Origin: a virus | Length of the DNA: 34,517 nt | Virus record (IMG/VR): IMGVR_UViG_3300034759_000283 | Location: 1 to 34,517 of that record | Reading direction: 5' to 3' (one strand) | Shown here: positions 8,680-20,628 of the stretch, one piece after another | How positions within the stretch are numbered: the stretch's first letter is position 1 | How the letters are laid out: every line of letters begins with the position of its first letter | Program-made: the position numbers and the translations under genes | The notes under the pieces: generated by a model | What the model was told of the DNA's origin: nothing | Seen by the model: the letters and a program-made list of their open reading frames with translations, nothing else | The model's database searches: none

Positions 8680-8862
8680 ATGGTGAAAGCCTTCCTGAAA
8701 TCTCGCCTCTGCGACCCACCAGTGGATTGCACGCCGGCAAATATCAATTCCGATTTGTTAAAGCAGCCCATTCCTGGCGACAAAGTCTATCATGCCGCAC
8801 TCGAGGCTTATAAAAGCCAAAATGTATCTTTTGTGTACGCATGTCCCCTGGATTCTAGATAA
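8680..8862 (+). CDS. Possible small plus-strand protein, 60 residues
   Basis: AGGAG lies 8 bases before ATG 8680 and a promoter-like pair lies 50-70 bases upstream. The protein reads MVKAFLKSRLCDPP... with Pro, Cys and Lys spread through it and no recognisable domain. GC and codon bias are lower than in the phage core genes. It is divergent from the excisionase-type gene, the usual place of a repressor or antirepressor, but no helix-turn-helix is seen. It may be a small lysogeny regulator, a cargo gene or a chance frame. Confidence 0.4.
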   Translation: MVKAFLKSRLCDPPVDCTPANINSDLLKQPIPGDKVYHAALEAYKSQNVSFVYACPLDSR

Positions 8863-9237
8863 AACGAGAGAATGCTTAACATCTGTTGCTTAAACTGGGG
8901 TACTAGGATTCGAACCTAGCGCCACACGAAATCTCCATGAGTAGTTCGTGTGCACAAAAGGAGCATTAACGAATCAGTGCACCTGAGTTGGAGTCAGGTG
9001 CGCGCTTCTACCGCGGAAGAGGGGCCAGTGAAGACAGGAAGCGACGGAAGGGGAGGACGACCGGTATCGTGGCGGGAATTACCGATGACCCTGGAAGGGG
9101 ATAAGCATACCCCTCGTACAAAACTGCGAACTAAAGGCCTGCCGACGACCGTCTCCACATTATGGCCCCTGCCTATCTATATGGGAATGCCACTTTAGGG
9201 GCGGATAGAGGGCAGAAAAGACAAGAAGACGCCCCAG
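8863..9237. other. 375-base stretch without a convincing gene
   Basis: It holds the tRNA-3'-like attP candidate and its hairpins (8895-9019). An 8-bp complement of the 3' end (AACTGGGG) occurs again inverted at 9232-9239, at the stop of the last glycosyltransferase gene. The possible frame at 8950-9198 has no clear ribosome site and no protein-like pattern, so it is not called. No strong terminator is visible after the glycosyltransferase operon. Confidence 0.5.
8895..9019 (-). other. attP candidate: tRNA-3'-end-like segment with tRNA-like hairpins
   Basis: Minus-strand 8919-8903 is a textbook T-arm (CTAGG-TTCGAAT-CCTAG). It is followed by TACCCCA (8902-8896) and a G, the layout of the 3' end of bacterial tRNA-Gln genes. 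The complementary TGGGGTA 5' strand is not next to it, so no ordinary tRNA folds. Upstream lie a D-arm-like hairpin (9019-9005), an 8-bp hairpin with 7-base loop CTCCAAC reading CCA at the anticodon place (9001-8979) and another 8-bp hairpin (8952-8923). With an integrase nearby, the best reading is an attP core copied from a host tRNA 3' end; a degenerate tRNA is the alternative. Confidence 0.55.
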
Positions 9238-9825
9238 TTATCTGAGGGCATTGTAATAGGTCGCCTCGAGGTCGAGCGCGATCGGTGCTACATCCTGGCT
9301 CAATCGCTCGTAAAGCAGCCCATCCGCAGCGGGCCGGTGCTCGAAGCTCCAGGCCGGGACGGGCTCTCCCGTGTTTTTCATCAGGTCCCGCCGTAGGACA
9401 CACTGCCCGATGTCCACGGCGTTCACGCGGGGCGGCACTTGGGGCCGCAAATAGATAGTCCCATCAGGCCGAACCTGGCGAAAGATGAACCATTGGGCCG
9501 CGGGAAATGAGCGGCGGGCCAGGAGGAAGACGATTTCCAAATGGGGGTGGATCAGGTTGTCGTCGTCCAGGAAGTAAATCCAGCCTGAGTTTATTTTTTC
9601 TAGGCATTCGTTGCGGAGGCTATAGCCCCCGACAGAATCGGATTCTTGGCCATAATCCCAGTGAGCCAGGGGCAAATCAGGCGGCCGGGCGGGCAGACTG
9701 GAAACGGCTCGGTCGAAGATTGCCCACCAGCGCCAGGGAATACTCAAGAGACCCCGCAGCGATAAGACCAGGGCGGGGAGATTTTGCGGCCGAGATACTG
9801 GGGTGATGATGTGCAGGATATCCAT
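9238..9825 (-). CDS. GT-A-type glycosyltransferase, short
   Basis: The protein has 195 residues. The start at 9825 is chosen because AGAGGGG sits upstream and the protein begins with the family strand MDILHIITPVSRPQNL. YFLDDDNLIHPH contains the metal-binding Asp triad at residues 87-89, and QCVLRRDLMKN fits the acceptor side. It is shorter than usual GT2 enzymes but keeps the nucleotide-sugar half and part of the acceptor half. It is the last gene of the glycosyltransferase group behind the Thr-rich fibre, so a sugar transfer to the virion or host surface is likely. Donor and acceptor cannot be read from sequence. Confidence 0.8.
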   Translation of the reverse strand: MDILHIITPVSRPQNLPALVLSLRGLLSIPWRWWAIFDRAVSSLPARPPDLPLAHWDYGQESDSVGGYSLRNECLEKINSGWIYFLDDDNLIHPHLEIVFLLARRSFPAAQWFIFRQVRPDGTIYLRPQVPPRVNAVDIGQCVLRRDLMKNTGEPVPAWSFEHRPAADGLLYERLSQDVAPIALDLEATYYNALR

Positions 9826-9928
9826 CGCTAAGACCCCTCTTTTCCTCATATAACAAGCGGCCTTCATACGTCAGCCGGTTATAGATCAGCGAGCGGACGA
9901 TTGCATCCTTGAGTTCTTCAGCCGTCAT
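9677..9928 (-). CDS. Uncertain small ORF overlapping the glycosyltransferase
   Basis: ATG at 9928 has GAGAGGCGAG in front and overlaps the previous stop by 11 bases. The first 33 residues (MTAEELKDAIVRSLIYNRLTYEGRLLYEEKRG) look like real helical protein. The remaining 50 overlap the next glycosyltransferase in another frame and look like a shadow. Either a short helical protein is made, or these residues are the original N-terminus of the glycosyltransferase, now separated by a frame change. Confidence 0.4.
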   Translation of the reverse strand: MTAEELKDAIVRSLIYNRLTYEGRLLYEEKRGLSDGYPAHHHPSISAAKSPRPGLIAAGSLEYSLALVGNLRPSRFQSARPAA

Positions 9929-10664
9929 ACTCGCCTCTCACGACTCCGAGAATTGCCGCAGTCTCGTCGTCGAACGCGATGCGCAGTTCCGCCGACGGGA
10001 GTTCTGGCACGTGCTCCGCGACAGTCTCGTACCAGGTTATATCGGCCGTCCCCCGCATGAAGTGCTGGGCGTGGTAGGAGCGGGTTGAGCCGTAGCGGAA
10101 GATGTAGCCTGGGCGGGGCTCGATGAGGAGGGGATCGGCCGGCGGGCCGCATTCTTCCTGCAGATGTCGCATGAACTCCTGGTCGAAGTCAGCCCGCCCG
10201 TGGGTGGGCCAGGGGACCTGTTCCCAGGCCCGGCGGGTGAGGACGAGGGAGCCGTGGAACCGCCCGGCGGCCGGTTCTTCCTCCAGCCGCCCGGTGTAGA
10301 GGCTCCAGACCCGGGAGGGCTTAGCCCATAGGGCCCCGCTCTGAATCATGGCCACAATGGAGGTCTCCAGGTGCCAGGTGAGATAAATGTCGTCGTCCTC
10401 CCAGATCGCCAGATAATCCGGGTCCCAGAGTTCGATGGCTCGCTCGGCCAGAGCATTGTATTTGGAGCCCAGATCGGGAAATCGCCGCGAAGTGACGATT
10501 TGGATACTGCCGATGGTCGCCGCCTCAAGGGCCCCGCCATCCTCCCAAATCAGCATCCGCCGCGGGAGCTCGCAGCGTTGGGCGAGGAAACAGGCCGCGG
10601 CGTTGCCAGTCAACCCGGGCCGTCGAAAAGTCGGGCACAGGGCCGCAATCATGCCATTGCTCAT
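9918..10664 (-). CDS. GT-A-type glycosyltransferase, 248 residues
   Basis: The protein starts IAALCPTFRRPGLTGNAAACFLAQ, the opening strand and helix of GT-A sugar transferases. RRMLIWEDGG and LAIWEDDDIYLTWHLE follow, with the metal-binding DDD at residues 90-92. The second half holds RFHGSLVLTRRAWEQVPWP and the GRADFDQEFMRHLQE acceptor-side stretch with candidate catalytic Asp. Its start overlaps the upstream gene as ATGA. No signal peptide or membrane segment is seen, so it acts in the cytoplasm. The probable target is the adjacent Thr/Ser-rich fibre or a surface glycan; this is inference from gene order. Confidence 0.82.
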   Translation of the reverse strand: MSNGMIAALCPTFRRPGLTGNAAACFLAQRCELPRRMLIWEDGGALEAATIGSIQIVTSRRFPDLGSKYNALAERAIELWDPDYLAIWEDDDIYLTWHLETSIVAMIQSGALWAKPSRVWSLYTGRLEEEPAAGRFHGSLVLTRRAWEQVPWPTHGRADFDQEFMRHLQEECGPPADPLLIEPRPGYIFRYGSTRSYHAQHFMRGTADITWYETVAEHVPELPSAELRIAFDDETAAILGVVRGEYDG

Positions 10665-12433
10665 GATTCATTATCCGTAGCAGTAGGTTCGGGGGCCGGT
10701 TCCACGGGGAGCCACTTCCCTAGCGGACAGGCTTGGTCTGCCCATTCGGCCTTTCCGCCTTGCCCCGTCGGGGCATCGATCAGGTAGCAGCCGCAGATCG
10801 AGCAGCGGTTCTCGCTGCGGTGTTCGCAGAGGGCGCAGAGATCGAGCCGGTGTTGCAGGGTGGCCTCATCGACCCATCGTGCCCCATCGCGGTAATGGTG
10901 GATGGCGGCCCGGGCGAAATTGAAGATCTGCCGGGCGGTGGAGGGGAGTTTCGGTCGGTCCTCCGGCAGATTGGAAATGATCGTCAGTCCGTTCCAGTCC
11001 TCGAAATGCTTATACACGATCCATTCAGGATGTTCTTTGAGGAAGCGGCGGAGGGCGGGGAGGAGTCCCGGGCCGCCATCTTCGCCCCGTTCGCCGAAGG
11101 TTGTGGTGTCGTGGAGAACGATCCGACCCTGGACCAGCGGGGCGTAGCGGGTCAGTTCGGCGTAGCACTGGGGGGCGGTGTGGAGGGTGTCGATGAACAG
11201 GAGATCGATCGGCCCCGTGGGGAGTTCGACCTGGAGGGAGTCGCCCAGGATCAGTTCCCAGTCGATCTCCACCAGGTTGCGGACAGACTCCAGCCAGGGT
11301 GGACTGGTCCTCTCGATGGAGATGAGTCTTTGCGGTCTGGCGGCCAGGAAGGCGGCGGTGCTGCCCCCGCGGGCCACTCCGAGTTCGACGACGAGTTTCT
11401 TCCCGGTCGCGAGTTCTCGCAGCCGCGGGATGTGTCCAGCGAGATCGGGGTGGTTTTGGGTCTGCCAGTCGTACCAGCTTTCAATCGATTCGATCCGTGT
11501 TGGCCCGCAGCCCCCGCAGCCGGCCTTTTGGCGGGCCGGTGGGTTCAGGTGTTTTTCGGGGTCGGCCACGAGGTAGTCCCAGTCCTCCTGGCTCATCCGC
11601 GTGAGGGCCCCCTGGGGAGGTGACCCATCCCCCGGGTCCTCACCCAGGCCCTCCACGAAGTGGCGGTGGAGCCGGTCGAGGGGCAGTCCCAGTTCGCGGA
11701 GTTCCAGGACATAGTTGCGGACCTTGTTCCACTGGGTCAGGGGATAGGGGACGCCATTGGGGCGGGCGAAGCGGTGGACCCAGCGGACGGCAGGGAGGCA
11801 GAGGCACTGGCGGCCAGCCTGGCGGTATTTCTCGTGGATGTAGCATTCTTCTCCGCCGAAGCCGCGGGCCAGGGGGTGGAAGCCGAGCCAGCTCTCGCGG
11901 CGGGCGGCGAAGAGCCCCAGTCCCTGGGCGAAGATCGGGAAGGGCTCCCCGTGGGGGTCTCGGCCGCGGGGGTCACTGCCCCAAATTCCCCACATCTCGG
12001 CCCGCCAGACATCCTGGAAGTGTGTCCAGACGTGGCTCCCGTCATCCGAGATGAGGACCCCCTGGAGGAGGTCATCGCAGGGGTGATGGGCCTCCAGGTA
12101 TTCCCGCAGCCTCTTGATGCTGCCGAGGGCTAGCAGAACGTGGCAATCCAACACTAAGACATATTCCCCGCTGGCATGATGGAAAATGGCGTCCCGGGCC
12201 GGGCTGGTCCCGACGGCCTGGCCGAAGGGGACGTAATGGACGGGGCGTTCCGGAAGCGAGACGGAGCGGCAATAGCCCTGGAGTGTCTGGGCCACGGGCA
12301 GGTGCGGGGCATTATCGACAATCAGGATCTCGCAGTCCTGGAGGGCCTCCTGGTGATGGACCAGAAGGGACTGGACGGTGAAGTAGACGCCGTCGAAGTC
12401 CGCATAGGTCGCCATGCCGATCGTGAGCTTCAT
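10661..12433 (-). CDS. Three-part fusion: GT2 glycosyltransferase, class-I methyltransferase and Cys-rich tail
   Basis: The protein has 590 residues. Residues 1-260 are a GT2-like domain: TIGMATYADFDGVYFTVQSLL, CEILIVDNAP, GTSPARDAIFHHASGEYVLVLDCH (DxH in place of DxD), and an acceptor half with GFGGEECYIHEKYRQAG. Residues about 335-500 are a class-I methyltransferase of the cephalosporin-hydroxylase-like kind: VVELGVARGGSTAAF (SAM loop), LLFIDTLHTAPQCYAEL and GRIVLHDTTTFG. The last 90 residues hold LCALCEHRSENRCSICGCYL, a likely zinc module. GAGGAGG precedes the ATG. It follows the fibre gene directly. The fusion suggests that a sugar is added and then methylated on the same target. Confidence 0.85.
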   Translation of the reverse strand: MKLTIGMATYADFDGVYFTVQSLLVHHQEALQDCEILIVDNAPHLPVAQTLQGYCRSVSLPERPVHYVPFGQAVGTSPARDAIFHHASGEYVLVLDCHVLLALGSIKRLREYLEAHHPCDDLLQGVLISDDGSHVWTHFQDVWRAEMWGIWGSDPRGRDPHGEPFPIFAQGLGLFAARRESWLGFHPLARGFGGEECYIHEKYRQAGRQCLCLPAVRWVHRFARPNGVPYPLTQWNKVRNYVLELRELGLPLDRLHRHFVEGLGEDPGDGSPPQGALTRMSQEDWDYLVADPEKHLNPPARQKAGCGGCGPTRIESIESWYDWQTQNHPDLAGHIPRLRELATGKKLVVELGVARGGSTAAFLAARPQRLISIERTSPPWLESVRNLVEIDWELILGDSLQVELPTGPIDLLFIDTLHTAPQCYAELTRYAPLVQGRIVLHDTTTFGERGEDGGPGLLPALRRFLKEHPEWIVYKHFEDWNGLTIISNLPEDRPKLPSTARQIFNFARAAIHHYRDGARWVDEATLQHRLDLCALCEHRSENRCSICGCYLIDAPTGQGGKAEWADQACPLGKWLPVEPAPEPTATDNES

Positions 12434-12453
12434 ATGACCTCCTCAATCAATCT

Positions 12454-15400
12454 CTAACGACACTGGACATAGTAAATTTCTCCCTGATACGAGCCGGATC
12501 GTGGGGGGCTATCGCAGACGCAGGACGAGCTGCATCCCTCGTAGGTGCAGTCATAATAGGGCATCCAGCCGTATTCATCGTCCCACTGCCAGACACACTG
12601 GCAGCTACTGCAATGAAGTGTCGTGGTCGTGCTGCTGCTCGTACTTGTGGGCGTGGAGGTGGTGGTCGTTGACGTTGTGCTCGTCGTGGTGGTCGTCGCA
12701 GGCAGGCATGCCAAAGCAGCATAAGCTCCGTGGAATGCGCCGATCCCTTCGGGCGGCGGTGGGCACTCGCAACCCTCTGAGCATCCTGCATCTATGAGGA
12801 TCCATGTCTGCTCTTGATCGCTCCACCACCAAGTGCAATCTCCATCACAGGATGGCTGCCCCGTTGTAGTCGTCGGTATGCCGGTTGTGGTCGTGCTCGT
12901 CGTCGTGGTCGTCGGGGCTTGGGTGGTTGTTGTGCTGGTGCTGGTAGTCGGCGCCGCGGTGGTGGTCGTGCTCGTCGTCGTGGTCGTCGGGGCTTGGGTG
13001 GTTGTTGTGCTGGTGCTGGTAGTCGGCGCCGCGGTGGTGGTCGTGCTTGTCGTAGTTGTGGTCGTCGGCGGCGGTGGCGGCGGTGGCGGTGGTTGGTCGA
13101 TACACCGGGACACCACCATATCAGTCCAGATTTGCTGTTCCTCATCCCAAATAGGGCCCGGCCCATTTGGCGGAACGCACAGGCAGCCTTGAGCGCAACT
13201 TTTTGTGAGGCGCCAGACACGATCCCAGGCATCCCACTGCCACGTACATTCGCCACTGCACGGCATTCGGGCCATTAGGTCTAACTGGGATAATGTCCTC
13301 ACGCAATCCGTGTATGCGATTTGCCCACTGGCGCTAGGCGGGTAGTCGGGCGCCCGGCAATTCGGACAGTTCTCGCTGCAGTCTGAAAATGCCAAATTCC
13401 AAATGCCAGTTGGTTCTCCTCCAGACAAGTTAACAAATTGTCCACGCCATTCACAGTGTCCGGTGCATGGGCATATCCGTGAGAATTTCGATTGATCGCT
13501 CGTGCAGCCAACGACATAGAAGCCTGGCGCGGGAAAATCCTCGGGACATACGACAGGACAGCCACAAGCCGGGCCCGACGCTCCTGTGGCACAGGTGTTG
13601 CCCTTTGAGCTAATCGATATCCGGCCTGCGTAATCGCTTGTAACCTCATAATAACACATCCCTATACAGGCGCAAGACGTGGTGGTTTGGGTTTGCGGAA
13701 TACAACCGATCGTGAATGTGTCATTCTGGGGCATGATGCCCAAGGATTCGCAAGGGATCGGCGCGCACTTGCAGCCGCTGCTGCATTGTTGCCGCAATAT
13801 CCGCCCGTCCGGATAAACTTCGCACTGGCCTGTGCAGGGGCCGCAGGTGGTGGTCGTGGCGGCCTCGGACGGACTTAGGCAGGGGACGGCAACAGTATGG
13901 CCGGGCTGCATCGGATAGCAGGGAGGGGGAGAACAGGCGCAGTCCGCCGGGCAAGTATTCGAGATGATCTGGACCGCCGAATCAATCACGGCGTAAAGGC
14001 AATACCCGGCGCATGGTCTAGTCGTCGTGGTGGAGCTCGTGGAGCTCGTGCTGGAGCTCGTGGTGCTGGAGGTGGTCGTGGGGGTGATAGTGGTTGTCGT
14101 GCTCGTGGGCGGCGCCCCGCGGCATAGGGATTGCCGGCACTCTCCGGCTTGCGTCCCGGGAAAAGGCGGGGCCGCGCAAGGGCATTCGGGAGGGCAATTT
14201 CCGCCGTTCCAGGAAGACCCATCCCAGGTCATGATACAGGGGCTCCCGCAGCCCAGACTCGTCGTTGTCGGGGGCGGCGGTTGAGATGGCGGCGGGCAGG
14301 GATAGGGCCAGGTCGTCGTTGTCTCGCAAATGCAATGGCAGGAGGTGTAGGCAATGCGCGAGCAATCCGGATTGCTCGGGGGCTGAGAAGGTGGATCACA
14401 GACGCAGCTGAGGCATTCGGCCTCCTGGTCCCCAGTTTTGCAGGGGCAGAGGCGTCCCACCCGCCAGCGTTCGGTGCAGGTGTCCTTGGTCTTAATCCAG
14501 CGGTTCCAGTCGAGCGACCAGATCCACTCGCAGCCACCGGTGCAGGGTGGACACGTCGTGGGGGTTGGCGCTGGGCGTTGGCCGCAGTTGGTATGGTAGA
14601 GGTCGCACTGGTCGCGGGGCTCCCGGTCCGGGTAGGGGCAGGGGCATTCGGGGCAGCAGTCGCGGGCGACCAGGCCCCAGCCGAGGGTCCCGCCCCAGCC
14701 CAGGACCGCCTTCCACTGGCAACCTTTGCAGCCTGTCCCGCAGCAGCAGTCGCGGGTGGTCGTGGTCGAGGTCCACGTCTCGGGGCAGCAGGGGTGCCCG
14801 GGGGGATAGGGGCAGGGGGTCGTTGATCCCGGGGCCGTGGTCGTCGTGCTCGATGTCCCGCGGCAATCGGGTGTCGGGAGTCCATAGTCTGAGCGGACGC
14901 AATCGGTGGAGGCGGAGAGGCAGTCGCCCCCACCGCAGAACTGCGGGGGGATGCACTGACAGCCTTCTGCGCAATCCTCTGTGCTTAGGGTCCAGGCCCG
15001 GTTCTCCTCGTCCCACGCCCACTGGCAGCTCCCGCTGCAGGGTGGGGTTGTGGTCGTGACGCAGGGGACGCTGATCTCCCAGGAGTCGCCGGGGCTGCAC
15101 CGCTGAGGCTGCGGGGCGCACTGGCATCCGTCGGGGCAGGTCGCATAGACGATTTCCGCCGTCCCGTCTTCACAGCGCCAGGTGCAGGTGCAGGGTTCGC
15201 AGTTGCCAGTTCCCCACGCGTATGGTGAGGGGGTGGTGGTTGTGGCGCTCCCCTCGCCCCGGCAAGTCAGAGCATAAGTCGCGGGTTCGACGGCCGTATG
15301 ATGGGCGGAGAGATAAATGATGGGCTGCGGGCCGAAGTGATACTCCACCGCATCGATATCGGAGTAGGCTTTTCGTTGCAGGATATTGAATGATCCGGGG

Positions 15401-16680
15401 GCGATGGCGGCATGCGCTAATCGTGCCGGGGCCACGACTTCGCTCAAGGCGCGGATCCGCTGGATGATAGCCTGCCCGCAGAGCTCGGAGATGTTGCAGG
15501 CAGTATTCTGGTACCAGCGTTGCCCGCGGCCCACGCCCGTATCCTGCTCGAAAAGCCTGACGCTGGTGTACTTCTTCTTGGTACACTGCGGCGTTGCCAA
15601 GATCACCCGGCGGGCCCGCGGAATGGTATCGCGCACCAAGTCGGAGTCGCCGGAAACGACATCGATTTCAAAGCCCTGCTCCAGGGCATAAGGCCGATTG
15701 GAGAAGATCACGATAAAACGCTCGTGATCGTCCATCAGCCGGATGAAGGGGCTGACGACCATCCCGAGGCTAGCCGCTAGGGCATCCAGGATCACTGTCG
15801 CGGGTTGGCCGGGTGTCTTCCAGGCCTCGGGGTCAGGCAGGATCGGCGGCAGAGTGGTCGTCGTGGAAGTCGTGCTGGTGCTGGTGGAGGTGGAGGTCGT
15901 CGAGCTCGTGGAGGTGGTGGAGCTCGATGTCGTGCACACCCGCATCGTGGTCGTGGTGGTCGCCTCGATCCCCTGCTGGATATCGGGCAGAGTTTTCAGG
16001 ACCTCCTGCGGGAGTTCGCTCCAGCGAGTCGGCTCCTCCAGGGCCGGAGTATCGAACCAGATCTCGCAATTCAAATCCCGCTCCAGGGCCTCGATGACTT
16101 GGACCCAGCTGCGGGGCTCCATCGGAAGATAGACGAATTGGGCGAAGAATCGCGGATCGGTCAGGACTAGCAGATAAAGCTCTTCCCGCGGTGGTGTCGT
16201 GGTCGTCGAGCGCAACCCCTCGGTGGCCGCAATCGGGATCATGTCCAAGGGCCGGACGGCCAGGCTGCGAATGCCCGCCTGATCGTTTCGCGGATCACTG
16301 GTCCAAGTCGTAAGTTCAAACCAGGTCTGAGTTTCCAGAGCTTGATAAATGGCCCGGGCCCGGCGGGAGTCGATGAGGAAGAGCCCGATCATGAAGCGGG
16401 TCCCGCCACTGGGGCACCACATCCAATTTAGATGATATTCCCGTGGCAGGGTATCGGCCCAGCGAAAACTGGACCAGCCCCCTAGTGGCACAGCCTTGGT
16501 ATCACCCAGCCAGAGTGTGGAAGGCGCAAAAGGCGCATTGGGCGGGGCCGTGTAGGGCCACCTCCCGGGTGGCCAGTAGCGGCGGAACCAGCGGCGAGTC
16601 GCCCGATCGGCCGCTAGGATGGCGAAGGGCTCGCCATCCAACTGAAGCATCAACTCGGGGGCAGATAGGGGTTCGCTCAC
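12454..16680 (-). CDS. Giant modular tail fibre/stalk: 12 Cys-rich modules with Thr/Ser linkers
   Basis: The protein has 1408 residues. The start is GTG at 16680 (GTGA overlap with the previous stop, GGAG 6 bases upstream); an upstream TTG is less likely. Residues 1-480 form a tail-hub-like region broken by a Thr/Ser stretch near 241-279. From about 494 on, 12 modules of 45-60 residues repeat the pattern C-x2-C-x-W-x-W ... C-x3-C-x-C-x-P-P ... C. Low-complexity linkers rich in Thr and Ser join them, and a Pro9 run lies near 1197. A 75-bp DNA repeat encodes the largest linker. The rest is probably an extended receptor-binding fibre. Disulfide or zinc use of the Cys is open. Confidence 0.8.
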   Translation of the reverse strand: MSEPLSAPELMLQLDGEPFAILAADRATRRWFRRYWPPGRWPYTAPPNAPFAPSTLWLGDTKAVPLGGWSSFRWADTLPREYHLNWMWCPSGGTRFMIGLFLIDSRRARAIYQALETQTWFELTTWTSDPRNDQAGIRSLAVRPLDMIPIAATEGLRSTTTTPPREELYLLVLTDPRFFAQFVYLPMEPRSWVQVIEALERDLNCEIWFDTPALEEPTRWSELPQEVLKTLPDIQQGIEATTTTTMRVCTTSSSTTSTSSTTSTSTSTSTTSTTTTLPPILPDPEAWKTPGQPATVILDALAASLGMVVSPFIRLMDDHERFIVIFSNRPYALEQGFEIDVVSGDSDLVRDTIPRARRVILATPQCTKKKYTSVRLFEQDTGVGRGQRWYQNTACNISELCGQAIIQRIRALSEVVAPARLAHAAIAPGSFNILQRKAYSDIDAVEYHFGPQPIIYLSAHHTAVEPATYALTCRGEGSATTTTPSPYAWGTGNCEPCTCTWRCEDGTAEIVYATCPDGCQCAPQPQRCSPGDSWEISVPCVTTTTPPCSGSCQWAWDEENRAWTLSTEDCAEGCQCIPPQFCGGGDCLSASTDCVRSDYGLPTPDCRGTSSTTTTAPGSTTPCPYPPGHPCCPETWTSTTTTRDCCCGTGCKGCQWKAVLGWGGTLGWGLVARDCCPECPCPYPDREPRDQCDLYHTNCGQRPAPTPTTCPPCTGGCEWIWSLDWNRWIKTKDTCTERWRVGRLCPCKTGDQEAECLSCVCDPPSQPPSNPDCSRIAYTSCHCICETTTTWPYPCPPPSQPPPPTTTSLGCGSPCIMTWDGSSWNGGNCPPECPCAAPPFPGTQAGECRQSLCRGAPPTSTTTTITPTTTSSTTSSSTSSTSSTTTTRPCAGYCLYAVIDSAVQIISNTCPADCACSPPPCYPMQPGHTVAVPCLSPSEAATTTTCGPCTGQCEVYPDGRILRQQCSSGCKCAPIPCESLGIMPQNDTFTIGCIPQTQTTTSCACIGMCYYEVTSDYAGRISISSKGNTCATGASGPACGCPVVCPEDFPAPGFYVVGCTSDQSKFSRICPCTGHCEWRGQFVNLSGGEPTGIWNLAFSDCSENCPNCRAPDYPPSASGQIAYTDCVRTLSQLDLMARMPCSGECTWQWDAWDRVWRLTKSCAQGCLCVPPNGPGPIWDEEQQIWTDMVVSRCIDQPPPPPPPPPTTTTTTSTTTTAAPTTSTSTTTTQAPTTTTTSTTTTAAPTTSTSTTTTQAPTTTTTSTTTTGIPTTTTGQPSCDGDCTWWWSDQEQTWILIDAGCSEGCECPPPPEGIGAFHGAYAALACLPATTTTTSTTSTTTTSTPTSTSSSTTTTLHCSSCQCVWQWDDEYGWMPYYDCTYEGCSSSCVCDSPPRSGSYQGEIYYVQCR
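12888..13037. repeat. 75-bp tandem repeat in the fibre gene (two full copies)
   Basis: Copies at 12888-12962 and 12963-13037 are nearly identical, and a shorter related third part follows to about 13065. Each encodes a 25-residue Thr-rich unit with AAP and QAP turns. Because 75 is a multiple of three, gain or loss of copies changes linker length without breaking the frame. That is a simple way to vary the fibre. Confidence 0.85.
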
Positions 16681-17165
16681 GCCAGGCTCCAATCGAATTC
16701 AATCAGGAAGTCTAGGGCAAAACTTGCGTATTCGATCTCCCCGCGGTTGCCCCGGAGCCAGACCAGGGGCGTGGCATTTGTGGCAGCGACCGTGCCGCGG
16801 AGATTCCAGCCCGCATAATCCTTTCCTACCAGGGCGGACAGAATCTTCCTTTTCCAGGCAAAGGCCCCGTCGTCAGGGTCGGTGAGGCGGACATCATCTT
16901 GTCCTGGTCGATCGCGGCTGAGGCGCATGAAGAGCCGCACCCGGAAGCCCCAGCGCTCGCAGAGATTGCCCGGGGTTTGCTCTTCGACGACAAACTGTCC
17001 GGCCAGGGGGCTGACGACGCAAAACGTGGGATGCGGCGGGATGCGGGCCGGGGCCAGGTCATCCGAGGCCAGGAAACAGGCCTCGGCGGGCATCTCCAGC
17101 CCACTGCGGAGGAGCTGCAGGATCCAGCTCAGGATGTCGGAGGGTTTTGTATCGACGCGGCTCAT
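16677..17165 (-). CDS. Tail-associated protein, 162 residues
   Basis: The ATG at 17165 overlaps the previous stop as ATGA. The protein reads SRVDTKPSDILSWILQLLRSGLEMPAEACFLASDD, then beta-rich segments ending SFALDFLIEFDWSLA. It is short and soluble, with no membrane segment. Its place between the large tail protein and the fibre, and the small beta-rich fold, suggest a baseplate or tail-tip component. No family is recognised, so the call rests on position. Confidence 0.6.
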   Translation of the reverse strand: MSRVDTKPSDILSWILQLLRSGLEMPAEACFLASDDLAPARIPPHPTFCVVSPLAGQFVVEEQTPGNLCERWGFRVRLFMRLSRDRPGQDDVRLTDPDDGAFAWKRKILSALVGKDYAGWNLRGTVAATNATPLVWLRGNRGEIEYASFALDFLIEFDWSLA

Positions 17166-19063
17166 GATCTCCTCGGATTCGGTCCCAGGTCCTCGGATAT
17201 CGCCTGGGCGGCCGGGAATCCCGCCCACTGGTCCGCAATGTGCGGGAGTCGCCCGACCGGCCATGGGGCGGCCTCCTGGGTTAGCGGGGGGATCCGGTCC
17301 AGGGCGTAGAGATAGCGGGCCCGGACCCGATAAATAAGTTCGTCTCCCATGGGCGATGTCACCGGCGGGAGGATCTCGACCTTCCAGTCCACCAGGAAGC
17401 CTTTGACACGATTGGCATCTTCGTAGTCCACCGGGGCAGGGATCTTGGGAACAACCCCGTACCGTTCGGCGTCCACGACAATCAGCCGCTGGGCCGAGCC
17501 CAGACCCAGCTGGATGACGACCGCCGTCGCTTGATCCTGACTGACACCCGTCGGGTCGAGGAGTCGCAGGAACTGGGCGCGACCCTTCCTGATCCGGTAG
17601 GTACTCTTCATCCGGGCGTAGGTGTAGTGGGCCTGGCGGTGGTCCTCAGACCACTTGCTCTCCCCTTCCGTGACCGGCTGCGGGACATCCTCGACCCGCT
17701 GGACGAGTGTCTCGGGCTCTTCGGGTCGGGTCACCTCCTCCGGGGCCCCGGCGGGGGCCGGCCACCAGCCGGTGGCGTGCCAGGGGTGATAGGGCCGCTG
17801 CAGGTAGCACTGGAAGAGGGCCACGGCGGCCGGGTCCCGCTCGCCACCCCAGGTGTTATAGCCATAGGGGGCCGGCAGCCAGGAGAGATTGGGATCGTAG
17901 TGATCGAGGGGAGGGGGACCGGCGGCCGGGATCGGCCAGGGCTCCAGGCCCTTCAGATCGAAGCCGATATTGAAGACCTCATCGTAGAAGTTCTGGGCCT
18001 GAACCTGGTCTGTGGGCGGGGTGTACTGATACTCGAGGATGATCTGGACCTCGGCCACATCGCCAATATTCTCCGTGATCTCGCAGTTCACGGGGAGCCA
18101 GTTGAACGTCTGGAGTTCCTGTTTCTTTCGCAAGAAGCCCGTGAGGGCATCGAGGATCTGGACGGCCCGCACGATGAGGGCCCGCCGGGAGACGTGCGGC
18201 GGGCCGAGCAGGCGGATCAGGCACTGCCCCCCGAACTTGGTCCCCTGCTGGGTCCGCTTGGTGTTGCGGACCTCCATCCGCGTGGCGGGCCAGGGGGCCG
18301 CGGTGTGGACCTGGCGGTCCACGACCTCGTAATCAGCCGAGAGGCCATCCTCCTTCACGGCATACCGCAGCCGCTGCCGCTTAAAACCGGCCTCCAGGGC
18401 CGGGACGACGATCCAGCGGTAATCGAGGCCGAGCTGCGAGACCGGTTTCGAGAGTCGCAGGCTGCCGTGGATCGTCCGTGTGAGATAGAAGTCCTGGTCG
18501 AGCTCCTCCTCGACCGACCAGCGGTTGTCGAGGACCACCCCCAGCTGACCCAGACCCTGTTCCAGGTGGTACCGCCGCTCCGGGGTGGCCGGGAGCTCCA
18601 GCTTCTGGCACTGGACCTGCCAGGAGATCTTGAGGGCCCTCGTCCCAATCGGGCCGAGGATCTCCAGATTCAAGGGCTGCGGGCCATGGGCCACGTCGCG
18701 GTCGGGGTCGTCGGGGGCCGTCTGGGCCGGGAAACACTGGAACATGACCTGGGGCTCGACCTCCCCGTTGGGGCCGAAGATGAGCTGCTCGACGCGGAGC
18801 GGATGGCGGGGATCCATGAGGGCCTGGCGGATATCCAGCCAGATCTCCCGCCTCGTCAGGGCGACGTTGCTGGTGCAGTAGACCTGCATCTTCCTGGTGT
18901 GGACGTCGCTGTAACTGGCCAGATCGGTCACCAGCCCCTCGAAGGTCATCGTGAAGCGGGAGTACCAGGGGTCGGTCTGCGACGGGTCGTAGACCAGTTC
19001 CTGGCGGAAGGCCCGGGTGAGGGCGTTTTTGATCGTGATCTGGTTGTAGGTGACGGTGATCAT
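17162..19063 (-). CDS. Tail protein, 633 residues (distal-tail/baseplate candidate)
   Basis: The start at 19063 overlaps the tape-measure stop as ATGA. The N-terminus ITVTYNQITIKNALTRAFRQELVYD looks like a phage tail adaptor strand. The protein is beta-rich, with repeated MEVRNT, WRVQ-like and QVQ segments and no predicted membrane helix. A Pro/Glu-rich stretch lies near residues 440-475. It directly follows the tape measure, where distal tail and baseplate hub genes usually sit in siphophages. Homology is not obvious, so the specific role is inferred. Confidence 0.7.
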   Translation of the reverse strand: MITVTYNQITIKNALTRAFRQELVYDPSQTDPWYSRFTMTFEGLVTDLASYSDVHTRKMQVYCTSNVALTRREIWLDIRQALMDPRHPLRVEQLIFGPNGEVEPQVMFQCFPAQTAPDDPDRDVAHGPQPLNLEILGPIGTRALKISWQVQCQKLELPATPERRYHLEQGLGQLGVVLDNRWSVEEELDQDFYLTRTIHGSLRLSKPVSQLGLDYRWIVVPALEAGFKRQRLRYAVKEDGLSADYEVVDRQVHTAAPWPATRMEVRNTKRTQQGTKFGGQCLIRLLGPPHVSRRALIVRAVQILDALTGFLRKKQELQTFNWLPVNCEITENIGDVAEVQIILEYQYTPPTDQVQAQNFYDEVFNIGFDLKGLEPWPIPAAGPPPLDHYDPNLSWLPAPYGYNTWGGERDPAAVALFQCYLQRPYHPWHATGWWPAPAGAPEEVTRPEEPETLVQRVEDVPQPVTEGESKWSEDHRQAHYTYARMKSTYRIRKGRAQFLRLLDPTGVSQDQATAVVIQLGLGSAQRLIVVDAERYGVVPKIPAPVDYEDANRVKGFLVDWKVEILPPVTSPMGDELIYRVRARYLYALDRIPPLTQEAAPWPVGRLPHIADQWAGFPAAQAISEDLGPNPRRS

Positions 19064-20628
19064 TTCTTCGGACGCTTGTTGAAGAGCTCAGGTGGCTTCT
19101 GCCGCTGTGGAATATCGATCTGCACGTCGCGGAACCGCTGCATGCGGTCGAACCACCAGTCTTGAGGGCCCTTGCCTTTCTCCACCCCCAGTTTGTTCAG
19201 GCCCCATTCCAGCTGCCTGTTGAGCCAGCCCGCCGAACGTTCCAGCAACTTCAACCCGGTGGCGACTTTGATCATCTCGCCGGCGGCCAGCCCGGCGGTT
19301 CGTCCCAGGTTGGCCAGGTTGGTCCCCAGGATTCGGAGATCTTCTCCCCCCCGCCGGTAGCGTTCAGCCATCGCGGCGTAGAGCCGGGTCGTGAGGTAGG
19401 TCCCCTCGGCGACCCGCCGCTGCTCCTGGAGGCGGGCGGCCTCCAGCTGGGCGGCCAGGCCGGCCATCCCGGAATGGACCCGCGTGAAGGACTCGGCCGT
19501 CCGCTGGATGGCAAAGACGGAGTCCTCAAGGCCCCTTGCCCACCGCACAAGGGCCACCGTGGCTGAGGCCAGGGCCGTGACCAGGGCCAGGGCCGCCCCC
19601 ACTGGCCCGGTAAGGACCGCGGCCAGCCGGGCCAGGGCCCCACCGACCTGACCGATCATCCCCACGAAGGCCGCCCCGCGGGCCAGCGTCCCCTGGCTGA
19701 TCCCTGCAGCTTGGGCAGTCTGGATGGCCTGCGGGCCCCGCATCGCCACCGGGGCCCTCCGCAGACTGGCAAAGAGCTGACGTGTGCTTCCCCGCTCGGC
19801 AAACTGCGTCAGAGACCGCCCGACGTACTGCCGGAGCGGCGAACGACTCCGCTCCAGCCGCCACCGCCAGACCCGCCCGCGACGGGTCCAGAGGAGGTCC
19901 TGGAGCCGCCCCGCCAATCCTGAGGCCCGCCGCCTTGGGCCTGTAACCCGCACAGCTCCCCGCCCCCTCACGGTCCGTCGACTAAGCCCCTCCACCCGCC
20001 CTTCCGGCCGTCTCCGCTGCTCGACGAGCTGCCGGGCAATCGTCTCGGCCGAAGGTGTGAGTTTCTCCAGCTGTCCCAGGAGACGTTTCTCCTGCCCGCC
20101 CGAGATCGCCTCGTGTACGGTCCGTCGACTAAGCCCCTCCACCCGCCCTTCCGGCCGTCTCCGCTGCTCGACGAGCTGCCGGACAATCGTCTCGGCCGAA
20201 GGTGTGAGTTTCTCCAGCTGTCCCAGGAGACGTTTCTCCTGCCCGCCCGAGATCGCCTCGTGTGTGGCTGGGGGCCGCGTCCCCTGGAGGGCCCGCGTCA
20301 GGGCCCGGGCATTGACCTCCTGCAGGACATCGAGATTGACCACGGTCGAGGAGGCCAGGGGCTGCTCCCGGCCCTGGGGAAGGATCCGCGGATCGAAGAG
20401 GACCGGACTGACGGCCGGTTGCGTCTGCAGACCGTGGGCGATCTGGCTGAGCCGCTCCCGACCCTGGGGAAGGATCCGCGGATCGGAGAGGAGCGGACTG
20501 ACGGCCGGTTGCGTCTGCAGACCGTGGGCGATCTGGCTGAGCCGCTCCCGACCCTGCGTCAGGGCCTTCTCGAGGGCCTCCGCCCCGCGGACAATCTCCT
20601 CGACGATCTGGGCAAATTCACTCAACAT
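19060..20628 (-). CDS. Tape measure protein, 522 residues, with internal tandem repeats
   Basis: ATG at 20628 lies inside the end of the chaperone fusion; a TTG 6 bases earlier is less likely. The N-terminal half is charged and helical and holds two exact-type tandem repeats, of 30 residues (90 bp) and 49 residues (147 bp). The second half has a hydrophobic stretch (FVGMIGQVGGALARL...VGAALALVTALAS), typical for membrane insertion during DNA entry. At 522 residues it is short, which would predict a tail of about 80 nm by the usual 1.5 angstrom per residue rule. It follows the chaperone frameshift pair, the classical position. Confidence 0.85.
   Translation of the reverse strand: MLSEFAQIVEEIVRGAEALEKALTQGRERLSQIAHGLQTQPAVSPLLSDPRILPQGRERLSQIAHGLQTQPAVSPVLFDPRILPQGREQPLASSTVVNLDVLQEVNARALTRALQGTRPPATHEAISGGQEKRLLGQLEKLTPSAETIVRQLVEQRRRPEGRVEGLSRRTVHEAISGGQEKRLLGQLEKLTPSAETIARQLVEQRRRPEGRVEGLSRRTVRGRGAVRVTGPRRRASGLAGRLQDLLWTRRGRVWRWRLERSRSPLRQYVGRSLTQFAERGSTRQLFASLRRAPVAMRGPQAIQTAQAAGISQGTLARGAAFVGMIGQVGGALARLAAVLTGPVGAALALVTALASATVALVRWARGLEDSVFAIQRTAESFTRVHSGMAGLAAQLEAARLQEQRRVAEGTYLTTRLYAAMAERYRRGGEDLRILGTNLANLGRTAGLAAGEMIKVATGLKLLERSAGWLNRQLEWGLNKLGVEKGKGPQDWWFDRMQRFRDVQIDIPQRQKPPELFNKRPKK
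19970..20263. repeat. 147-bp tandem repeat in the tape measure gene
   Basis: Copies 19970-20116 and 20117-20263 are almost identical and encode 49-residue units (HEAISGGQEKRLL... GLSRRTV). A whole number of codons keeps the frame. In tape measure proteins such duplication lengthens the tail. Confidence 0.9.
20372..20551. repeat. 90-bp tandem repeat in the tape measure gene
   Basis: Copies 20372-20461 and 20462-20551 differ at only a few bases and encode 30-residue units (GRERLSQIAHGLQTQ...). The few differences are non-synonymous (LLSDP versus VLFDP), so the duplication is recent. Confidence 0.9.

Follow-up and report, generated by a model that had tools for sequence, protein, structure and literature searches.

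A candidate phage-encoded mucin-type O-glycosylation cassette beside a Thr/Ser-rich tail protein

What would a phage do with three glycosyltransferase genes set directly behind a Thr/Ser-rich tail gene? The question is raised by a 34.5-kb viral record of IMG/VR (IMGVR_UViG_3300034759_000283; 34,517 nucleotides, analysed whole and here called the window), which encodes a terminase, a Mu-type portal, RecT, RusA and an integrase. There, a long Thr/Ser-rich open reading frame (ORF) is followed after 20 bases by a first glycosyltransferase gene, GT1, then by GT2, which overlaps GT1 by 4 bases, and by GT3. All cassette genes discussed are on the minus strand, and it is from their shared strand and close spacing that we infer a single operon. 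A sequence-only reading had likened the arrangement to mucin; the predicted fold of GT1 and the linkage of its homologues to Ser/Thr-rich neighbours support that likeness. We consider it quite probable that, with this cassette, the phage encodes its own mucin-type O-glycosylation of the tail protein.

The tail protein and its three enzymes

The long ORF (12454..16692) has 1412 codons from a TTG, or the 1408 that the sequence-only reading had counted from the GTG at 16680. Its product is apparently a tail "fibre", a label given because of gene position: a tape-measure-like gene (PHROG match 1.9e-4) and then two further tail-region genes lie upstream. A base, or hub, domain (approximately residues 1-490; 15223..16692) precedes Cys-rich modules, 11 of which were aligned, and Thr/Ser linkers, the whole containing 333 Ser/Thr and 110 Cys. 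Six linkers, 195 residues in total, were delimited: residues 254-280 (15853..15933), a short Thr linker at 481-490 (15223..15252), 612-626 (14815..14859), 859-891 (14020..14118), the longest, Pro/Thr/Ser-rich, at 1200-1281 (12850..13095; in part a 75-bp tandem repeat, 12882-13064), and 1331-1358 (12619..12702). Pro/Thr/Ser-rich stretches alternating with Cys-rich domains make up a mucin-like pattern. When ORFs with at least 50% Ser/Thr within a 30-residue stretch are counted as Ser/Thr-rich, only 14 of 728 in 43 related viral loci qualify; the richness of the fibre is therefore not background.

GT1 (10661..12433; 590 amino acids, aa) joins a glycosyltransferase domain (residues 1-300; 11534..12433) to a methyltransferase domain (Methyltransf_24, residues 349-442; 11108..11389) and a Cys-rich tail (10781..10876), the fusion that had been read from the sequence. 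Pfam recognizes both enzymatic domains above cut-off (Glycos_transf_2, 6.7e-12; Methyltransf_24, 2.6e-7), and the tail is matched only weakly (DUF6171, 0.006, below cut-off; PHROG 13558, function unassigned, 2e-7). GT2 (9918..10664; 248 aa) has no Pfam match; its four-row profile matches GT-A glycosyltransferases in the Protein Data Bank (PDB), at best with 1.5e-5. GT3 (9238..9867; 209 aa) is a probable GT-A enzyme: Glycos_transf_2 falls below cut-off both in the window (E 0.076) and in a copy from Thermogutta (7.8e-4), the best PDB profile match, a weak one, is the prophage glycosyltransferase SunS (E 0.011), and the weak resemblance to glucuronyltransferase 1v82 (E 0.07) is a lead only. The three GT-A enzymes proposed directly after the fibre are thus confirmed in position and, for GT1 and GT2, in family, GT3 being the weakest case.

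The glycosyltransferase domain of GT1, modelled from a 43-sequence alignment, gave a local confidence (pLDDT) of 94.1 and a predicted template-modelling score (pTM) of 0.92. In a Foldseek search with this model, the best 50 of 602 chains (E up to 0.001) were all polypeptide N-acetylgalactosamine (GalNAc)-transferases (best E 1.7e-13; query TM 0.57-0.69 among the matches listed). VIA-align, applied to the Foldseek top 1000, placed the same enzymes at ranks 1-29 (Z 24.1-20.6; root-mean-square deviation 2.5-3.4), followed by chondroitin polymerase (Z 19.2) and then others. Identity to GalNAc-transferases in the structural alignments is 13-19%. The DxH metal motif is present (D96/H98), as are F192, G193, G194, E196 and H220, a counterpart of the WGGEN ... 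H signature that we take to be the Gal/GalNAc-T motif; all 43 aligned GT1 sequences keep D96, H98, F192-G193-G194, E196, H200 and H220 unchanged. A profile of the catalytic half, built from five close GT1 sequences, retrieves GalNAc-T7 as first PDB match (E 0.0052), with the FGGEE of GT1 opposite the WGGEN of GalNAc-T7 and the late His of GT1 opposite the His of that enzyme. GT1 is therefore similar to the polypeptide GalNAc-transferases in its motifs and predicted fold, and its function is plausibly like theirs; we do not file it as a member of the family. These enzymes (GT27) initiate mucin-type O-glycosylation in animals, and the modelled fold brings the comparison with mucin closer than a reader of the letters could know.

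A search for the same gene order elsewhere, suggested in the sequence-only reading, leads to a contig of Thermogutta sp. MAG-77, where a 1286-aa fibre, a 593-aa GT1-methyltransferase-Cys protein, a 251-aa GT2 and a 192-aa GT3 stand in identical order. The six genes compared between window and contig show protein identities of 47-72% and ratios of nonsynonymous to synonymous substitution rates (dN/dS) of 0.19-0.30. Nothing in the fibre is better conserved than its Cys residues, 102 of 110 being kept. At 150 aligned linker positions, 86% are Ser/Thr in the Thermogutta copy, and 61% are identical versus 51% outside linkers. Since linker Ser/Thr are conserved, and nine Ser/Thr codons are used, selection seems to act on the residues and not only on a DNA repeat. 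The Thermogutta fibre has five listed linkers, that at residues 1331-1358 not being among them, and one module fewer. Capsid-based scans recovered 46 viral and six genome loci; because the closest genome capsid match is also Thermogutta sp. MAG-77 (85%), the host is likely a Thermogutta-like planctomycete.

Homologues and their neighbours

A scan of IMG/VR with GT1, independent of the fibre, yielded 51 viral loci, including the window's sister (L090) and copies of two relatives treated below, L008 (as L092) and L068 (as L111). The adjacent gene is Ser/Thr-rich in 35 of 51, against 7.6 expected when ORFs are drawn at random from those loci (2000 draws, maximum 17), and such an ORF lies at most two genes away in 39, against 16.2 expected (maximum 26). 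The pairing of a Thr-rich protein with a glycosyltransferase, first noted in the window, is thus recurrent. It also persists after clustering, a cluster being counted if any member has an adjacent Ser/Thr-rich ORF: 25/35 clusters at 90% identity, 15/22 at 70% and 5/7 at 50%. Generic PF00535 glycosyltransferases from the six genomes behind L009-L014 (the first 21 listed plus two others in the same stretches) gave 0 of 23, several of them near a contig end and hence with one-sided neighbours. In planctomycetes, GT1 homologues occur in 7 of 392 genomes, at eight places; a Ser/Thr-rich ORF is adjacent at five and within two genes at six, or at four and five of seven once the Thermogutta copy is removed.

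The setting of several pairs is that of structural genes. The pair in L116 and L130 is flanked by head or spike genes on one side and, on the other, by a protein that matches tail-fibre PHROGs, and the Thr-rich protein of L116 itself matches tail-spike and virion-structural PHROGs; L105, L128, L132 and L135 resemble this arrangement by eye. L095 and L140 each carry a PHROG-recognized tape-measure gene upstream of their Thr/Cys-rich protein and GT1, and L097 has a following gene of GT2 type (PF00535, 8.5e-6). The Cys module of the window was detected in Ser/Thr-rich proteins near GT1 in L097, L140, L105, L129 and L146, and in L103 and L106 in one placed 4.6-4.7 kb upstream; at E 0.001 it was not detected in other GT1 loci beyond the window's near kin. 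Further enzymes stand by eye or by Pfam near two homologues. Within 15523-16972 of L128, a few genes after GT1, there is a methyltransferase (PF13578, 3.4e-14), and the same vicinity holds two proteins that look sulfotransferase-like, the one scanned having no Pfam match. In L150, a locus of a planctomycete genome, a GT1 homologue shares 8862-12696 with a 193-aa ORF rich in Thr/Ser and with a gene that by eye is GT2-like, in a setting that looks cellular and not prophage.

More distant relatives share the base domain of the fibre, which has profile matches in 32 of 50 related records and in only one of 392 planctomycete genomes. A hub locus was called Ser/Thr-rich if the hub protein or either of the next two genes passed the threshold and the contig continued; L047, L065 and L071, whose contigs end after the hub (L047 and L065 being Ser-rich), were left unscored, and L066, without a same-strand gene, and the split record L081/L084 were excluded. 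Glycan enzymes follow 9 of 9 Ser/Thr-rich hub loci and 2 of 13 others (Fisher p 2.2e-4); with close kin merged by eye into seven and nine lineages, the counts are about 7/7 and 2/9 (p 0.003). The enzymes vary from one cassette to the next: GT25 with Methyltransf_24 (L064); a group-1 glycosyltransferase, Sulfotransfer_3 and two GT2 (L006); GT25 with a GXM-type sugar methyltransferase (IRX15/GXM; L072); Mannosyl_trans3 with GT2 and then FkbM (L082, whose kin L083 carries a GT2 at G030); and, in L070/L042, a GT2 recovered through a read-through search, the cut-off ORF alone having no Pfam family. In L069 (9248-11076, minus strand) a cytidylyltransferase (PF02348, 9.1e-39) follows a Ser-rich hub protein, and the next protein has a match below cut-off (E 0.074) to the MptE-like family, which presumably includes the Maf enzymes; a phage protein may be O-glycosylated there from a CMP-sugar. 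L020, from the same phage, has a weak Methyltransf_24 match (E 0.016). Across 11 Ser/Thr-poor, cassette-free loci, 54 downstream proteins (of 59 listed, five long or truncated ones being omitted) contained no glycosyltransferase, methyltransferase or sulfotransferase family at E 0.001; this control stops at the first opposite-strand gene, and L073 and L087 contribute one protein each and L086 two.

Near cassettes, proteins of different families bear a Cys-rich, DUF6171-like tail, as judged by weak Pfam matches or by eye (window, 10781-10876; L047, 18736-19479; L067, 5548-7668; the GT1 ends of L091 and L097), and a sequence pattern for it hits 3 of 19 long GT1 proteins. L008 (14400-16520) is a decayed relative, with a gap from the major tail gene to the last Cys module and the start of GT1 fused out of frame to the end of GT2. 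Relatives were sought with a 633-aa tail-region protein of the window (17162..19063, minus strand), and a viral scan repeated with an alignment of it gave no additional ones. Between it and the fibre lies a conserved tail-region protein (16677..17264, minus strand), represented in relatives by ORFs of 160-172 aa in the same place. The tape-measure-like gene holds two recent, frame-keeping duplications (19970-20263, 147 bp, 99%; 20364-20556, 90 bp, 97%). Beside the integrase, 8885-8960 resembles by eye the 3' half of a tRNA (T-arm and acceptor end, minus strand) and is perhaps the phage attachment site; ARAGORN found no tRNA in the window.

What the enzymes may modify

That the Thr/Ser-rich tail protein is the acceptor seems very probable to us, from its place beside the enzymes and the recurrence of the pairing. 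Several observations weigh against such a reading. The whole-domain profile of GT1 ranks bacterial GT-A enzymes first, with GalNAc-transferases at E 0.38 and 0.6, and a Pfam search up to E 1, which listed the methyltransferase and DUF6171/DUF5869 regions, found no lectin domain. The threshold of one half Ser/Thr in 30 residues was chosen after the data were seen. The excess of Ser/Thr-rich ORFs around GT1 falls with distance (within three genes, 39/51 against 22.6 expected, maximum 34). For the base domain, neither PHROGs (E up to 0.1) nor the PDB (E up to 1) gave a match; its AlphaFold model was poor (pLDDT 38) and was not used. At 12 of the 51 GT1 loci no Ser/Thr-rich ORF occurs within three genes, so linkers may not be the sole acceptors: three of these loci (L093, L102, L104) begin close to a contig edge, and eight (L109, L111, L121, L123, L128, L134-L136) adjoin Cys-rich proteins with Ser/Thr fractions of 0.37-0.47. 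The GT1 of L094 adjoins neither kind of protein. On the hub side, glycan enzymes occur in L067 with no Ser/Thr-rich linker, and the linkers of L068 are short (0.47); the cassettes of both adjoin Cys-rich proteins whose Ser/Thr runs are few or short. The sequence-only reading had named glycosyltransferases conserved in phages without Thr-rich fibres as evidence against itself; in the one form in which we looked for them, the hub comparison (2/13 versus 9/9), the outcome is mostly in its favour, with L067 and L068 as exceptions. The exceptions on the hub and GT1 sides weaken the idea and do not refute it.

The same exceptions give some room to an alternative in which the enzymes glycosylate the Cys-rich modules, through O-, C- or S-linkage, and the linkers are plain spacers. 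The GT1s of L121, L123, L128 and L134-L136 adjoin large proteins with 33-95 Cys, Cys is what the two fibres conserve best, and SunS, the weak best match of GT3, glycosylates Cys. Nevertheless, most GT1 partners are Thr- or Ser-rich, the predicted fold of GT1 is that of enzymes acting on Thr/Ser, and distant cassettes in which no GT1 homologue was detected also follow Ser-rich proteins; we regard Cys-module acceptors as unlikely.

Slightly less likely still is lysogenic conversion, by which the glycosyltransferases would alter the host surface against other phages and their place beside the fibre would be a late moron position. The window has an integrase, and the genes lie between it and the tail genes, proximity to an integrase being common for host-modifying genes, which also counts against a role in the virion; serotype-changing phage glycosyltransferases are described in the cited passages of PMC12619734. 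The link of GT1 to a Ser/Thr-rich ORF in 25 of 35 clusters speaks against conversion, as does the position of the L116 and L130 pairs within a structural gene block. Serotype-conversion enzymes are membrane proteins, and gtr systems consist of a membrane glycosyltransferase and flippase genes. In the three enzymes of the window no segment stands out as a membrane helix (highest hydropathy over 19 residues, 1.4), and no gtr-type Pfam match occurs among the 19 window proteins scanned, a set that does not cover every ORF. Modification of phage DNA, as in glucosylated-DNA phages, is hardly credible here: diverse phage glycosyltransferases do hypermodify DNA (work cited in the passages used of PMC12619734), but the same 19 proteins include no base-hypermodification gene, the cassette stands among tail genes, and the enzymes of closest fold have polypeptide substrates.

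Exchange, precedent and implications

If the cassette does serve mucin-type O-glycosylation of the tail protein, the base domain would dock the 1412-codon protein to the tail, and GT1 would attach the first sugar to linker Thr/Ser; that GT1 makes this first sugar-peptide bond is, to our judgement, rather likely. GT2 and GT3 could then lengthen the glycan and the methyltransferase half of GT1 cap it by O-methylation, steps suggested by the enzyme families and for which we see the balance as about even. The product would be a stiff, hydrated, protease-resistant stalk, and its purpose would be stalk protection or the tuning of host recognition.

One contig (L002/L003; IMGVR_UViG_3300034521_000317) is a sister to the window, with 99.2% identity across 20.3 kb, and bears on this purpose. 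The two phages differ in 162 columns: 119 at 11171-11503 (minus strand), that is GT1 codons 311-421, covering the stretch before the methyltransferase domain and most of that domain; 42 in GT3, within 9296-9802 (minus strand); and one in the fibre. Under random placement, the chance that two such tracts both land in glycosyltransferase genes is about 0.009. The tracts presumably arose by recombination with other phages, with the phage's RecT-family protein as a possible agent. The difference may be an assembly chimera, but each version has an open frame and seems to be under constraint (dN/dS 0.10 and 0.20). A diversity-generating retroelement was considered and rejected: the differences are mixed in type, not directed at adenines and often synonymous, and no reverse transcriptase is among the 19 proteins scanned. 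A swap of decorating parts between near-identical phages suggests an arms race centred on the glycan; because alleles are swapped, exchange of glycan identity between phages would most likely tune host-surface binding or evade recognition.

The principle of phage virion glycosylation is not new, since it is already known in mycobacteriophages, where phage glycosyltransferases are held responsible for the virion glycans (Freeman et al. 2023, as cited in passages of PMC11256854 and PMC12619734) and glycans are reported, in those passages, on capsid and tail-tube subunits. Here, too, the phage encodes glycosyltransferases, which would modify a virion protein. What differs from the mycobacteriophage system, as those passages present it, is the candidate acceptor, a Thr/Ser- and Cys-rich tail protein adjoining the enzymes; the enzyme family, for which a tblastn search of 50,697 phage records with five members (GT1 and four homologues) gave no match, as did one with the fibre; and the methyl-, sulfo- or sugar-activating enzymes carried by relatives. 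Polypeptide GalNAc-transferases are GT-A enzymes with a DxH motif, so named for GALNT1, and a lectin domain (passages of PMC4202792). With the animal system the cassette shares the GT-A fold that is closest, in prediction, among the chains compared, the DxH and Gal/GalNAc-T-like motifs, and a nearby Pro/Thr/Ser-rich protein with Cys-rich domains; GT1, compared by model and sequence, differs in being viral, in its 13-19% identity and in the ricin-type lectin domain, none having been found. Maf flagellin glycosyltransferases use CMP-sugars and O-glycosylate surface-exposed Ser/Thr with nonulosonic acids or Kdo (passages of PMC11339370). Their likeness lies in the cytidylyltransferase that L069 encodes after its Ser-rich hub protein; by comparison with what those passages describe, the MptE-like match of L069 falls below cut-off and flagellin is not involved. 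The sequence-only reading knew of no phage system of exactly this design, and our search of open-licence papers likewise returned no description of it. Within that literature, the acceptor type, the enzyme family, the spread and the modular decoration appear new.

Beyond the window, we lean towards the view that many lineages of uncultivated phages, represented by the 25 paired GT1 clusters at 90% identity or the 15 at 70%, carry a self-contained mucin-type system in which GT1 glycosylates Thr-rich, Cys-modular tail proteins and exchangeable decorators (methyl-, sulfo- or CMP-sugar-type enzymes) complete the glycan. If this is true, phages build their own mucin-like coat on a host-facing part of the tail, and why phages glycosylate themselves becomes testable. 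The solved examples of the GT1-like fold that we compared come from animals and Toxoplasma; animal and phage enzymes would then share ancestry or have strikingly converged. Engineering could gain from such cassettes a compact, bacterial means of mucin-type glycosylation, and their GT1 enzymes would be candidates for the early history of the polypeptide GalNAc-transferases.

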